A stretch of DNA of 64,000 bases from Maribacter stanieri (lineage in GTDB: Bacteria; Bacteroidota; Bacteroidia; Flavobacteriales; Flavobacteriaceae). The notes below the pieces were generated by a model. It did no database searches, was not told the DNA's origin, and worked only from the letters and a program-made list of their open reading frames with translations. Positions 28,539 through 33,396 of the stretch are shown here, piece after piece; within the stretch, counting starts at the first letter, position 1, and each line of letters starts with the position of its first letter. The stretch covers positions 186,001 through 250,000 of the forward strand of contig NZ_FOYX01000002.1 of the NCBI RefSeq assembly GCF_900112245.1, given 5' to 3'. The position numbers were made by a program, and so were the translations under genes.

Positions 28539-28682
28539 ATATTTCTTTAAATATAATGACAGATTTTTCTCTCACAAGCCCCGTAAATAGGCATTATATC
28601 AATATGTCCTTGGTTTTTATAAGGATATTCTAGGTCTCCTTTTTCCTTCCTATGTTTAATTTCGTAGTATACATTATATTTT

Positions 28683-29414
28683 TTGAACTACACATATACC
28701 ATAATAGACTCTGATGCTGTCTCAAATTTGCAGTTGCATGCATTTTTAGACGAATATGGTGATTTTGAATGTATAAATACTACCACCAACCCTACAGATG
28801 GTTTAAACGATATTTTAAAATATTCTCCTGATATTGTTTTTATAAACTTAAATAACGACTATTCATCAGTTTTTTTAATGGTGACCGAAATTCACCAATA
28901 TATGAGTCAATTACCTATTTTAATTGGTATTGCTTCAACCAAAAATTACGCATATGACGCCATAAAAAATGGTTTTTTTGATTATTGGCTACAACCCTTT
29001 AATGAATTTGATATTCGTAAATCTTTGTTGAAACTTCAAAAAAGAATGCCAAAAGAAAAGGCTCCTGCAACTTTATGCCTTAAATCCTACAACGATTTTC
29101 AATACTTGAATACCAATGATATTCTTTATTTAAAAGCAGATAATAATACCACTGAATTTTTTATGAAAGATGGTGCAATTATTAATGCTTTTAAAACGTT
29201 AAAAACTTTTGAGAAAACATTGCCAGATAACTTTATGCGTATACATCAAAGTTATATTGTAAATACTAGCTATGTTTCTCGCATTAACTTTGGCAAATCT
29301 ATCTGCGCCTTAAAAACGGTGAATGAGAACATTCCCTTCTCAAAATCATACCGTGAGAATATGAATAACCTAAAAACTATTCTCTCAAAAAACACCCTTT
29401 CCACCTTGAATTAA
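28683..29414 (+). CDS. LytTR DNA-binding regulator with degenerate receiver domain
   Basis: The frame starts at TTG 28683; no earlier ATG exists. The 243-residue protein has a receiver-like N-terminal domain and a LytTR DNA-binding domain (about 138-240, DILYLKADNNTTEFFMKDG, then FMRIHQSYIVNTSYVSRI). In the receiver, the phosphoacceptor Asp is replaced by Asn55 (DIVFINLN in place of the usual LIFLDI). The conserved Lys before the proline is Gln (YWLQPF in place of YLLKPF). Phosphorylation by the normal route is therefore unlikely. It heads the signalling cluster that continues to 32612. Confidence 0.85.
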   Translation: MNYTYTIIDSDAVSNLQLHAFLDEYGDFECINTTTNPTDGLNDILKYSPDIVFINLNNDYSSVFLMVTEIHQYMSQLPILIGIASTKNYAYDAIKNGFFDYWLQPFNEFDIRKSLLKLQKRMPKEKAPATLCLKSYNDFQYLNTNDILYLKADNNTTEFFMKDGAIINAFKTLKTFEKTLPDNFMRIHQSYIVNTSYVSRINFGKSICALKTVNENIPFSKSYRENMNNLKTILSKNTLSTLN

Positions 29415-29554
29415 AGAATTCTCTCACAATTGGGTCATATACTCACAGAACAGCGTCATTCACTTATGACTCAGAAAACTGCAATTACGCTCCGCTTTAT
29501 GGTATTACCTTGGCTATAGAATAAACCAAAGAACCCCTAAAAAACAGGAACATT

Positions 29555-29734
29555 ATGAAAAAAGTAACAAGTATCTTAGCAGTAGCAGTAATGACATTAG
29601 GAATAGCAACAGCGGCTGTTCAAAATTTAAATAGTGAATTTGATTTCTTAAACGATATTTCTAAAGCACTTGCTTGTGATGATTGCCATACCAATGATAC
29701 AAGAGGAGATAGACCTATAGGTAAAATCGCATAA
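29555..29734 (+). CDS. Exported 59-residue peptide with CXXCH motif
   Basis: An ATG at 29555 opens a 59-codon frame ending at 29734. Residues 1-20 are a clear signal peptide (MKKVTSILAVAVMTLGIATA). The mature part is about 38 residues, acidic in the middle, with CDDCH at 41-45 followed by a TRGDRP stretch. CXXCH is the haem c attachment motif, but could equally be a metal or disulfide site. It has its own strong terminator and lies between a LytTR regulator and a TPR histidine kinase, which would fit a secreted signal or sensor cofactor. No known family was recognised. Confidence 0.7.
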   Translation: MKKVTSILAVAVMTLGIATAAVQNLNSEFDFLNDISKALACDDCHTNDTRGDRPIGKIA

Positions 29735-29753
29735 GAATATAAAAACATATTAC

Positions 29754-29793
29754 AAAAAAGCTTTTAACATTAATGTTAAAGGCTTTTTTTTTA
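29754..29793 (+). terminator. Rho-independent terminator after the 59-residue peptide gene
   Basis: GCTTTTAACATT (29760-29771) pairs with AATGTTAAAGGC (29772-29783), preceded by six A and followed by nine or more T. The stem is almost perfect over 12 bp with one G-U pair. Confidence 0.85.
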
Positions 29794-29825
29794 TACCTTG
29801 GTTTTCTATCTCCAAATATTTTTTT

Positions 29826-31904
29826 TTGATTAAATATTATTTTTCAATATTCGTGCTAGTTATATTTTGTACCAGTTGTGCAAAAACAAAACCTTCTTCA
29901 GAAACAACCACAACAACTAAGTTAGAAAATGATAGTATTTCTATCTGGATTGCAAAAAGTCAAAAACCTACCACAACAAATGAAGAAAAGTTAAAACTAC
30001 AATTAAAAGCATATGCTTTTGCTGAAAATTCAAGTAACGATTCCTTAAAAGCCAGTTATTTTTCTACCCTTTCATATAATCAAATATTTGTAACTGATAG
30101 TTCTTTATTTCGTAAAGTAAATAAAAGAGCAATTACAACAAATGAAAAAATCAAGGACTCCACTGCGTTAGGTATAGCCTATTGGGATATGGGCTATTTT
30201 TTTCAAGGCAAAGTCTTTAAGGATAGTGCTTTCTATTATTACTCGGAAGCTCAGAAGACATTTGAAGACATTAATGAAAATGCATTATCAGGAATAATGT
30301 ATTTAAATATGGCATCCATACAAATGCAGATAAAGGATTATACGGGCAGTGAAGCAAATACCACAAGAGCAATTGAACTATTTAAGCCTTTAAATGATAA
30401 TTACAACTTATACAATTGTTATAATCTTCTTGGTATACTGCTAGGTGATTTAGAGGAATATGAAAAATCATTAATTTATTATAATGAGGCGCTTTATTAT
30501 TTAAAAAAAACAGAAAATAGCAAAATAAATGAATTGCCTATTATTAATAACATAGGTATTGTTTATCGAAACACTAAACAATACAAGAAAGCAATTGAAA
30601 ATTTTGAAAGTGTTATAAATGCCAGTAATATCCTTGTAAAAAATCCGAATTTATACGCAAAAGCTTTAAGTAACCTAGCTACTACCAAGCTATACAACGA
30701 AGATACACTTGGTATACATAACTTATTGATCAAAGCTATTGATATAAAGCACCAAGAGAAAGCATTAGGAAGCTTAGCATCAAGCTACTATGGTTTAGCT
30801 GAATACAACCTTTATGCAAAAGATACTTTAACAGCATTCGACAATGCTAAAAAGGCGTTAAAATTTTCAATTGAAAGTAATAATAATGAACGACTACTTA
30901 AAACTTGGTCTTTTCTCGCAGGCATAGATAACGCTAATGCTACTGAATATTTTCAAAAATTCACCATACTTAGTGACAGCCTTCAAAAAGAAGAACGTAA
31001 ACAACAGAATAAATTTGCACGTATACGATTTGAAACAGATGAATTTATAGCAGAAAATATAGAATTGGAAAGTGAAAAAGAAGTGCTTTCTAAACAAAAG
31101 AAAATGTGGATCGGTATTGCAACTGGTTTCTTTTTACTTGGTCTGTCAATCTACATTATCATTAACCAACGTGCTAAAAATCAAAAATTACGTTTTGACC
31201 AACAACAACAGGCAAATAACCAAGAGATCTTTAATCTCATGTTAATGCAAAAACAAAAAGTAGACGAAGTTAAAAGGCTAGAACAAAAACGTATTTCAGA
31301 AGAACTTCATGATGGTGTCTTAGGTAAAATGCTAGGTGCCCGTATGATATTGACAGGACTTAATAAACGCGCTACCGATGAGGCTATACAAGAAAAATCT
31401 AAAGCACTAGGCTCCTTACAAGAAATTGAAAATGAAATACGATCTATATCACATGAGTTAAGCCACAGTGCCTATCAAAAAATCAACAACTTTACAGACT
31501 CTATTGAAACACTACTTTCAAACAACAAAAATATCGACATTAAAACCTTCTTTCATTTTAACGAAGACGAAAACTGGGACAGCCTAGCTGGCGATGTAAA
31601 AATTAATGTATACAGAATAATACAAGAAACATTTCAAAATGCAATTAAGCATGCAAACTGCTCGTATTTTGAAGTTACTTTTCACCGAGATGATGAGAAA
31701 TTCAATGTTATAATGAGCGACAATGGCATCGGTTTCAATCTTAATAAAGGTAAAAAAGGTATTGGCATTAGAAATATTACTTCTAGGATGGATAAATTAA
31801 ATGGTTCATTTCATATTGATACAACTGAAGGACAAGGCACTACAATCTCCCTGAACATTCCGATACAAATTGAAACTAAAAAAATAATAAATAATAATAC
31901 CTAG
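29826..31904 (+). CDS. TPR-containing histidine kinase (HisKA_3/NarX type)
   Basis: The 692-residue protein begins at TTG 29826 with a hydrophobic export signal ending near Cys18 (CTSC, a poor lipobox). A periplasmic helical/TPR region (about 50-390) follows, then a coiled coil, one membrane helix (427-447) and the cytoplasmic kinase. The HisKA_3 motif RISEELHDGVLG places the phosphorylated His at 495. The ATPase has NAIKHA, DNGIGFN and KGIGIRNITSRM. Periplasmic TPRs with this kinase type are common in Bacteroidota. The NarL-type regulator 39 bp downstream is the expected partner. Confidence 0.9.
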   Translation: MIKYYFSIFVLVIFCTSCAKTKPSSETTTTTKLENDSISIWIAKSQKPTTTNEEKLKLQLKAYAFAENSSNDSLKASYFSTLSYNQIFVTDSSLFRKVNKRAITTNEKIKDSTALGIAYWDMGYFFQGKVFKDSAFYYYSEAQKTFEDINENALSGIMYLNMASIQMQIKDYTGSEANTTRAIELFKPLNDNYNLYNCYNLLGILLGDLEEYEKSLIYYNEALYYLKKTENSKINELPIINNIGIVYRNTKQYKKAIENFESVINASNILVKNPNLYAKALSNLATTKLYNEDTLGIHNLLIKAIDIKHQEKALGSLASSYYGLAEYNLYAKDTLTAFDNAKKALKFSIESNNNERLLKTWSFLAGIDNANATEYFQKFTILSDSLQKEERKQQNKFARIRFETDEFIAENIELESEKEVLSKQKKMWIGIATGFFLLGLSIYIIINQRAKNQKLRFDQQQQANNQEIFNLMLMQKQKVDEVKRLEQKRISEELHDGVLGKMLGARMILTGLNKRATDEAIQEKSKALGSLQEIENEIRSISHELSHSAYQKINNFTDSIETLLSNNKNIDIKTFFHFNEDENWDSLAGDVKINVYRIIQETFQNAIKHANCSYFEVTFHRDDEKFNVIMSDNGIGFNLNKGKKGIGIRNITSRMDKLNGSFHIDTTEGQGTTISLNIPIQIETKKIINNNT

Positions 31905-31943
31905 TATTAAAACGTTTAGTAAATTACAATAGAATCGTAACTT

Positions 31944-32612
31944 ATGAACACTGTACGAATTTTAGCGGTAGATGATCACGAAATGACAGCTTTGGGGTAT
32001 AAATATATCCTTGAAGACTCTGATTTTACTGGCTTTAATGTAAAAGTTGAAATTGCCACTAGTTTTGAAAAAGGTAAAAGTAAAATTGAATTATCTAAGC
32101 GAGCAGTACCTTATGATTTAATTCTGTTAGATATTCAATTATTTTCACCAGAATCTAAAGATATCAGAACTGGTATTGATTTAGGCATGGTTGCAAGAGC
32201 TGAAGTACCCAATTCAAAGGTAGTTTTTATGTCTTCTTATAGCGACAACTACAGAATCAATAACATTTTTAAAACCGTAAATCCAGATGGGTATATGGTT
32301 AAATCTGAAATTGATGAAATGTCGTTAAAAACAATGGTTGAAACTATAGTTAATGAATCTCCATATTATACCGCAAGTGCACTTTCTGCAATACGCCGAA
32401 GAATGTCTACAGACATTGTAATAGACGAACAAGACCAAAAAATACTATATCACCTTTCCCAAGGTATACACACAAGAGATATAGCACCATTAATTGGCTC
32501 TGCAAATACCACTGTTGAAGCTAGAAAAAGACAACTAAAAGCTTTATTTGATGTTAAGAATGGAAACGATCTTGCATTAATAAATGAAGCTAAAACTCGT
32601 GGATTCTTGTAA
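31944..32612 (+). CDS. NarL/LuxR-type response regulator
   Basis: The 222-residue protein has an intact receiver: acidic pair AVDDHE at 9-13, phosphoacceptor Asp63 in LILLDIQ, and a conserved Lys in MVKSE near 117. The C-terminal region (about 155-220, DEQDQKILYHLSQGIHTRDIAPLIG) is a LuxR-like helix-turn-helix. Its receiver is complete, unlike the LytTR protein of the same cluster, so it is the likely phosphorylation target of the upstream kinase. Confidence 0.9.
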   Translation: MNTVRILAVDDHEMTALGYKYILEDSDFTGFNVKVEIATSFEKGKSKIELSKRAVPYDLILLDIQLFSPESKDIRTGIDLGMVARAEVPNSKVVFMSSYSDNYRINNIFKTVNPDGYMVKSEIDEMSLKTMVETIVNESPYYTASALSAIRRRMSTDIVIDEQDQKILYHLSQGIHTRDIAPLIGSANTTVEARKRQLKALFDVKNGNDLALINEAKTRGFL

Positions 32613-32757
32613 AATTATTAAATAATTGATTTTCAATTAGTTATGATTTTTATCTTCATTTTAACATAATATCCTCATAAATTCTAAGGTTTTCCTATAT
32701 GATATTGCAACGTGAGAAAAGTATCTTTATAAGAAAGAATGCTATAATTTTTCTTGT

Positions 32758-33396
32758 ATGCCATTTAATTACGAAAACTTCATAAACAATTCAAAGCTAG
32801 AATACACCAAAGAAATTAATGGTTTAGACGAATTTCTAACCTCTCTTGGTTTTCATTATTTCTCAAGTGTAAAGCTTAACAATAAGCATATTACCTTTAA
32901 CTCCATTAGTTTGGTAGTAGAAGTAACTTGTAATTTAGATTTGCTGGAGCTACTAGCGCACTTTAATACCGGACGTTGGGGAAGCAATGGCAAAGAAGAA
33001 TCTCCTTTACAACATGCCTTAGATATTCTTGATTTACAGAATCAATATCATATAGATATTGAAGAACTTACCTTTTTCTTAAATGATACAAGTATTGTTA
33101 TTAAAAGAATTTATGACAAGAGTATACCAAGCCAATTAAATGACATTTTAAAGCAAATTGCATTTAACTATGTCTTTTTAACAAGAGGTCTTACTCAAAA
33201 ACCATATGAAATTTTCGTTCCTATTTTTGAAGATATAATAGAAAATATAGATGCTAACGAAAATCAACTAAATATGGTCCCAAAATCATATTCTGAATTT
33301 TGGGGAATATATTTAGATAAAGACGACGAAGCATCTATTTATGATGTGAACAAGAATACCTATGTAAGTGGTGATTTAGAGTTTCTATCAGAATAA
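32758..33396 (+). CDS. Hypothetical protein, 212 residues
   Basis: The protein has no signal peptide or membrane helix and looks soluble and mixed alpha/beta. Notable segments are NSISLVVEVTCNLDLLELLAHFNTGRWG in the first half and an acidic C-terminal region (IYLDKDDEASIYDV). No family or catalytic motif is recognised. It is convergent with glyA, whose terminator hairpin starts 8 bp after this stop codon. Confidence 0.6.
   Translation: MPFNYENFINNSKLEYTKEINGLDEFLTSLGFHYFSSVKLNNKHITFNSISLVVEVTCNLDLLELLAHFNTGRWGSNGKEESPLQHALDILDLQNQYHIDIEELTFFLNDTSIVIKRIYDKSIPSQLNDILKQIAFNYVFLTRGLTQKPYEIFVPIFEDIIENIDANENQLNMVPKSYSEFWGIYLDKDDEASIYDVNKNTYVSGDLEFLSE

Follow-up and report, generated by a model that had tools for sequence, protein, structure and literature searches.

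What does a short exported peptide do in a locus where it is encoded directly upstream of a sensor kinase with tetratricopeptide repeats (TPRs), together with two regulators of which one has a degraded receiver? We addressed this question for a locus in a stretch of 64,000 nucleotides (the window) of the 4.46-Mb genome of Maribacter stanieri (Flavobacteriaceae). The best explanation that we can offer, and one that we consider reasonably probable, is a peptide autoinduction circuit. In this circuit, the 59-residue precursor would be exported, and its C-terminal unit would be active, either after release by a protease or while tethered. The extracytoplasmic TPR superhelix of the kinase would sense that unit, and the kinase would phosphorylate a NarL-type regulator, which would bind a 23-bp palindrome before the LytTR gene and before a fifth gene. 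The LytTR protein, whose receiver lacks a phosphorylation site, would then bind direct repeats that lie upstream of the peptide gene at a spacing of 21 bp, and would drive a short, separately terminated peptide transcript, so that a positive loop is closed with LytTR as the relay. The path from regulator through LytTR to peptide is well supported by sequence patterns; the step from peptide to kinase is one that we infer.

Gene content and conservation of the locus

The initial annotation had described four genes on one strand, and a check of the open reading frames (ORFs) confirmed all four at the coordinates given there. The four genes are real and form one unit, to which a fifth gene on the same strand belongs too:

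28683-29414, plus strand: LytTR regulator with a degraded receiver (acceptor Asp replaced by Asn), start TTG, from ORF, domain search and alignment
29555-29734, plus strand: exported peptide precursor of 59 aa, start ATG, whose probable active part is a C-terminal CxxC...R tail
29826-31904, plus strand: TPR sensor histidine kinase (HisKA_3) of 692 aa, start TTG, with residues 20-422 modelled as a TPR superhelix
31944-32612, plus strand: NarL-type response regulator with intact receiver residues, start ATG, from domains and alignment
32758-33396, plus strand: fifth gene, 212 aa, of no known family, predicted target of the NarL-type regulator

The linkage of the four genes stands; the unit comprises five genes, with probably three or more promoters. 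The peptide is present in 33 of 36 Maribacter genomes, and the three genomes with no match have completeness values of 64, 68 and 92% and are assembled in 360-590 contigs. The order LytTR, peptide, kinase, regulator, fifth gene is identical in 33/33 loci, and it is kept even at one locus with fragmentary genes (L063). Because the whole neighbourhood is syntenic within Maribacter, conservation in the genus alone is weak evidence, and 349 Flavobacteriaceae genomes were searched with the LytTR protein at E <= 1e-40. This search returned 100 matches in 95 genomes, which a hand count split into 54 strong ones (at least 286 bits; 3 from Maribacter) and 46 weaker ones. Outside Maribacter, all 51 strong loci and 9 of the 46 weaker ones, which form a sister group, were examined.

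At each of the 51 orthologous loci of other genera, a short ORF that begins like a signal peptide comes after the LytTR gene. Of these loci, 50 also have the kinase and 49 the regulator, and contig ends account for the missing genes. The neighbours of these loci are mostly the same as in Maribacter, which identifies them as one ancestral locus. The expectation that the genes stay together in other genomes was thus borne out, within the genus (33/33) and beyond it (51/51). Nor did a peptide gene turn up apart from the kinase and regulator, the finding that would have spoken against the proposed system: by hand comparison, each of the 34 peptide matches at E <= 1.2e-4 across the 349 genomes is located immediately after a LytTR gene of this group. 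Matches weaker than this, up to 0.01, include some at the locus, and the majority are confined to the leader; the profile would miss the peptides of the sister group. In a search confined to the order, 27 of 246 genomes matched at E <= 1e-28, all 27 from the same family, the share of other families among the 246 not being stated.

Two regulators and their predicted binding sites

The LytTR domain is well above its Pfam cut-off (E 3.3e-18; 66.2 bits against 22.6), and the receiver of the same protein scores below its own. The acceptor column holds N in 78 and D in 3 of 93 aligned proteins; receiver degradation is thus, by alignment, conserved, as expected for the dead-receiver protein that had been described. 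The LytTR and kinase ORFs both begin with TTG, as had also been noted, and for LytTR this start aligns with TTG in 31 of the 33 Maribacter loci, the exceptions being the broken gene of L063 and a contig-truncated gene (L071).

The partner regulator had been described as intact, and D63 and K120 are kept in 91/91 sequences. Its receiver match (2.9e-6) and a very weak GerE match (0.1) are both below the Pfam cut-offs, and NarL-like models match over most of its length, below their cut-offs. The kinase His is likewise kept in 90 of 91 aligned rows, with a gap in the remaining one. The pair thus has what HisKA_3 and NarL-type partners carry: the HisKA_3 His and a HATPase_c domain on one side, the receiver acceptor Asp and Lys on the other.

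Two promoters of the unit carry a palindrome:

28605-28627, no strand assigned: palindrome TGTCCTTGGTTTTTATAAGGATA (CC-N13-GG), predicted site of the NarL-type regulator in the LytTR promoter
32670-32692, no strand assigned: second palindrome TATCCTCATAAATTCTAAGGTTT, before the fifth gene

The first sits 78-84 nt before the LytTR start in most loci, and its core pattern has one exact match in its own genome. Under a loose rule, a palindrome was found before LytTR in 77/81 loci, before the fifth gene in 76/81 and before both in 73. Under a stricter rule, the counts were 48/72 and 45/82, respectively, against 0.3 and 0.5 in shuffled sequences and against 1/83, 0/29 and 0/37 in three other gaps of the locus. 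The half-sites vary between genera in a complementary manner, with pair 6-18 complementary in 63 of 83 loci (shuffle mean 35, maximum 47) and pair 3-21 in 60 (mean 38, maximum 53). Moreover, the half-site dinucleotide is shared by both sites in 34 of 42 non-Maribacter loci (mean 16.8, maximum 27 in 2000 shuffles).

The site types, sorted by eye in 34 loci, go with the recognition helix of the NarL-type regulator. CCCC sites accompany helices like AASTTVEN, sites with a CCAT half accompany SLSLPxIEN, even if their second half is CCTT (L169 deviates), and CCTT/CCTC sites accompany TTVE[SA]R. Columns that track the CCCC half-site at p < 1e-5 number 32/222 in the regulator, 2/243 in LytTR, 5/692 in the kinase and 2/212 in the fifth gene. 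From these patterns, the palindrome-binding protein is probably the NarL-type regulator.

In the window's own genome, the palindrome patterns occur only at the LytTR promoter, at the fifth-gene promoter and, with one mismatch, at one site in a long ORF. Nine selected genomes that carry CCAT-type sites contain 16 exact sites, and 13 of these lie at the same two promoters; the other three, in two genomes, are flanked by genes with no common theme, and one-mismatch sites are at about the level of the reversed control. The three off-locus palindromes are at G340:C5:31605 (L219), G340:C5:52029 (L228) and G265:C22:126801 (L215), and that of L219 is near a kinase gene and a LytTR regulator with an intact-looking receiver.

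The peptide gene is surrounded by elements of a different kind:

29417-29431, plus strand: direct repeat 1 (AATTCTCTCACAATT), predicted LytTR box
29438-29450, plus strand: direct repeat 2 (TATACTCACAGAA), predicted LytTR box
29459-29470, plus strand: weaker third repeat (TTCACTTATGAC), from alignment
29503-29514, plus strand: conserved TA-n-TTTG-like element (TATTACCTTGGC), probable -7 box of the peptide promoter, from alignment
29757-29791, plus strand: terminator-like hairpin with a T run, -15.1 kcal/mol

Direct repeats 20-22 bp apart precede the peptide gene in 66 of 84 loci (shuffle mean 7.7, maximum 14), and a spacing of 21 bp is by far the most enriched. Direct repeats of that spacing, about two helical turns, have the geometry of LytTR sites. 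In the 4.46-Mb genome, the double box is unique at up to 3 mismatches. Downstream of the repeats, the TATTACCTTGGC element presumably corresponds to the Bacteroidetes -7 box, which it resembles. In 73 of 91 loci, against 13.6 in shuffles, the peptide gene has a terminator-like hairpin downstream, and the genes therefore do not form one simple operon.

Since palindromes precede LytTR and the fifth gene and direct repeats precede the peptide gene, the predicted circuit runs from the regulator to LytTR and the fifth gene, and from LytTR to the peptide; the pairing of each protein with its site and a positive sign of regulation are assumed in it. The LytTR protein had been proposed as a phosphorylation-independent output. 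It is now probably a relay and not a parallel output, because its own promoter carries the palindrome assigned to the regulator and LytTR-like direct repeats precede the peptide gene. The fifth gene would be a second target of the regulator. No family was found for it in Pfam, NCBIfam or further family and fold searches, and its structure model is poor (predicted local distance difference test, pLDDT, 55), so it was left out of the fold search.

The peptide resembles a signal precursor

An exported peptide had been placed directly upstream of the kinase, and the 59-aa ORF agrees with this. A signal-peptide-like ORF is present in the gap between LytTR and kinase in 87 of 90 loci on the sense strand and in 3 of 90 on the antisense strand, three loci with broken or missing genes having been left out of this control; the three sense misses (L050, L154 and L167) nevertheless have a peptide ORF. 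Export was judged by a hydrophobicity rule, and both the signal peptide and the transmembrane segment of the kinase are readings of the sequence. No family scored above cut-off for the window peptide in Pfam or NCBIfam, or for the peptides of four relatives in Pfam.

The precursors consist of a leader, a variable spacer and a tail. The tail is of the CxxC...DR type in Maribacter and TDGDDxPxxxRD-like in many genera, and tails with and without cysteines are found at the same locus. The signal is Sec-type in Maribacter and lipoprotein-type in most other genera. By script, 13 of 92 precursors, from nine genera, carry tandem repeats of the tail unit; two more from a tenth genus (L148, L154) show, by eye, two imperfect units. 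Two Maribacter loci encode three peptide units in one ORF, and genus g2 has one unit in one species (L147) and about seven in another (L144). The unit is only 12-15 residues long in several genera, and some repeat-bearing precursors exceed 100 aa. Among the copies of 10 arrays, pairwise codon differences are 340 synonymous against 120 non-synonymous, counts to which non-independent pairs within an array and some degenerate first copies contribute, with the L180 array supplying 66 of the 120; three arrays show 22/0, 18/0 and 14/0. Such a synonymous excess is what selection for several equal units would give, and on these features the peptide looks like a signal precursor.

These data bear directly on the notion that what is conserved here is a regulatory region, for instance a small RNA or a leader, of which the ORF is a by-product with no translated function. 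The ORF is short, and the flanking promoter and terminator are conserved, as this notion would have it; the synonymous excess within arrays, the coding frame conserved in 33/33 Maribacter loci and the signal-peptide start in 87/90 gaps make it highly improbable.

The composition of the tails raises another alternative, in which the peptide is a periplasmic accessory of the kinase, either an inhibitor or a metal- or calcium-binding co-sensor, that acts in the same cell with no cell-to-cell signal. Tails of the CxxC or Asp-rich kind have the potential to bind metal ions, and TDGDxxP is similar to the calcium-binding type 3 repeats of thrombospondin. The repeat array of one relative gave very weak zinc-ribbon matches (0.036), and the lipoprotein-type signals outside Maribacter would hold the peptide on its producer. 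However, the tandem multiplication of a 12-15-residue unit in several genera better fits released units, and the occurrence of tails with and without cysteines at the same locus also speaks against an accessory role, which we judge quite unlikely.

The L180 peptide consists of six 28-residue units that contain both TDGD, a motif of many genera, and RRDPPK, which some of the Maribacter peptides have; by its motifs, this repeat appears to link the two peptide types.

Does the TPR kinase sense the peptide?

The kinase contains TPR_12, HisKA_3 and HATPase_c domains (Pfam), and the part before its predicted transmembrane segment was modelled as a TPR superhelix with a mean pLDDT of 86.5. In Foldseek, the best matches of this sensor model were LGN-peptide complexes, and Rap-Phr and NprR were within the top 50; any TPR array may yield such matches, so this result is suggestive only. 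The sensor is the fastest-changing part of the kinase, with a median identity within Maribacter of 0.42 against 0.68 for the kinase domain, and the stretch beside the membrane is conserved (0.80). Binding of the peptide to periplasmic TPRs is a plausible proposal. Many of these kinases (29826-29880 in the window, and relatives) begin with a lipoprotein-like signal, e.g. FCTSC, yet seem to have a transmembrane segment ahead of the kinase domain. Lipid anchoring would be unusual for a sensor kinase.

Several points weigh against the autoinduction circuit. Once the other genes are corrected for, peptide-tail distances correlate with sensor distances at 0.08 (permutation p 0.14), and the DNA-binding domains of the regulator (0.31) and of LytTR (0.26) give higher values. 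Sensor columns track CxxC peptides no better than other genes do, and the regulator has more such columns than the sensor. The contact between peptide and kinase, which we infer, is the missing link. In the examined neighbourhoods, where most neighbours were compared only with the window genes, neither a peptidase gene nor an exporter gene was recognised. Five other kinds of gap contained no signal-peptide-like ORF, but these gaps are shorter and form a weak control. As for the DNA sites, the three innermost palindrome pairs show no excess of complementarity, and the complementarity counts given above come from palindromes chosen per locus by pairing score, which favours complementarity, and from shuffles that ignore relatedness. 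The search expressions for both palindromes and direct repeats were written after the sequences had been seen. The CCCC loci may belong to a single clade, and columns that track the site type are found in the receiver as well, so that the association may reflect a single replacement of the regulator together with its sites, which would still link the two. Finally, no wider regulon was found in the window's own genome or in the nine chosen genomes.

The correlation results suit an explanation in which the peptide is an output, bacteriocin-like or structural and secreted or at the surface, made when the kinase senses something else, with LytTR as its dedicated activator. The promoter evidence and gene order fit this equally well, coevolution of sensor and peptide was not detected in two tests, and repeats could raise the dose of an effector. 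Yet an immunity gene was not recognised beside the peptide, credible peptide matches never lie away from the LytTR gene (34/34), and copies kept equal as protein suit a recognised ligand. We consider this explanation unlikely. Returning to the autoinduction circuit, its extension to a family-wide pheromone system of Flavobacteriaceae, with secreted, often multi-copy peptides, an extracytoplasmic TPR kinase, a NarL-to-LytTR relay and species-specific private channels, is in our judgement evenly balanced between true and false.

Comparison with known signalling systems

In Agr/Com-type systems (AgrC-AgrA, ComD-ComE), a secreted peptide, a membrane kinase and a LytTR regulator are encoded in one cluster with positive feedback, and the kinase phosphorylates the LytTR regulator itself. 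The present locus shares the clustering of peptide, membrane kinase and LytTR. It differs in that the LytTR acceptor is lost (N in 78/93, D in 3), so that phosphorylation of LytTR by the kinase is not indicated, in that a separate NarL-type regulator stands between them, and in that the kinase is of the HisKA_3 type with a TPR sensor. The available portion of a review of two-component quorum sensing describes the positive feedback of Agr/Com-type systems, assigns peptide signals to Gram-positives and lists for Bacteroidetes only homologues of parts of known pathways (PMC8895600).

The RRNPP systems of Firmicutes (Rap, Rgg, NprR, PlcR, PrgX) likewise encode a short exported precursor beside a TPR receptor. 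As defined in the accessible text of PMC10075063, they combine an intracellular TPR receptor of 250-500 aa with an adjacent short exported propeptide of 10-100 aa. Here, Pfam TPRs and the superhelix model indicate a TPR receptor, and a 59-aa propeptide, Sec-exported by the hydrophobicity rule, is encoded directly upstream; the receptor, in contrast, is a 692-aa membrane kinase of Bacteroidota with TPRs that are probably outside.

A further comparable system is FimS/FimR of Porphyromonas. According to the sections of PMC11053733 available to us, FimS has multiple periplasmic TPRs and no established signal, its authors consider a polypeptide possible as the signal, and those sections mention no linked peptide or LytTR gene. 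The window kinase is a sensor of the same kind and matches the FimS model weakly (1.8e-9), with 36.5 bits against a cut-off of 600. Clusters of Bacteroidales for ribosomally synthesised and post-translationally modified peptides also have small precursor genes, some beside TPR or kinase-regulator genes, and carry modifying enzymes and peptidase-transporters, as far as the accessible part of PMC10352776 describes them; here, none of the latter were recognised. The locus as we read it works like Gram-positive peptide signalling but lacks a defining feature of each of its closest families. No description of it was found in the literature searched, in which long result lists were covered in part and preprints and most subscription journals were outside the scope.

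The circuit is unusually readable from DNA: the conserved gene set, a peptide unit that is repeated and under selection, the two kinds of DNA site, receivers both degraded and intact, and a predicted TPR fold are all visible in the sequence. The locus pairs a TPR kinase with a precise candidate ligand, single or repeated across many genera, and with two predicted operator types. If the circuit is real, a common marine group would have its own means of communication by peptides, and LytTR would be a clean case of a receiver-dead protein serving as a transcriptional relay. If the pheromone reading holds, peptide reception may extend to further orphan TPR kinases of Bacteroidota, FimS being one example.

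Sister group and duplicated genes

In the diverged sister group, 8 of the 9 examined loci again have LytTR, a small lipoprotein-like ORF, kinase and regulator in this order, among other neighbours, and the small ORF differs from the main-group peptide. At the ninth locus (L197), LytTR and regulator are present, and the kinase was not seen in the stretch examined. In the other eight (L189-L196), inspection by eye of the 180 nt upstream of the peptide ATG revealed a GAAGCTTC palindrome in 6, and clear direct repeats were not seen before the peptide; by these sequences, the sister group may use a different operator for its peptide gene. Two such kinases are encoded in tandem in one genome (L173:2734-7007) and two LytTR genes in tandem in another (L158:1437-3292), which look as if parts of the cassette are duplicating.

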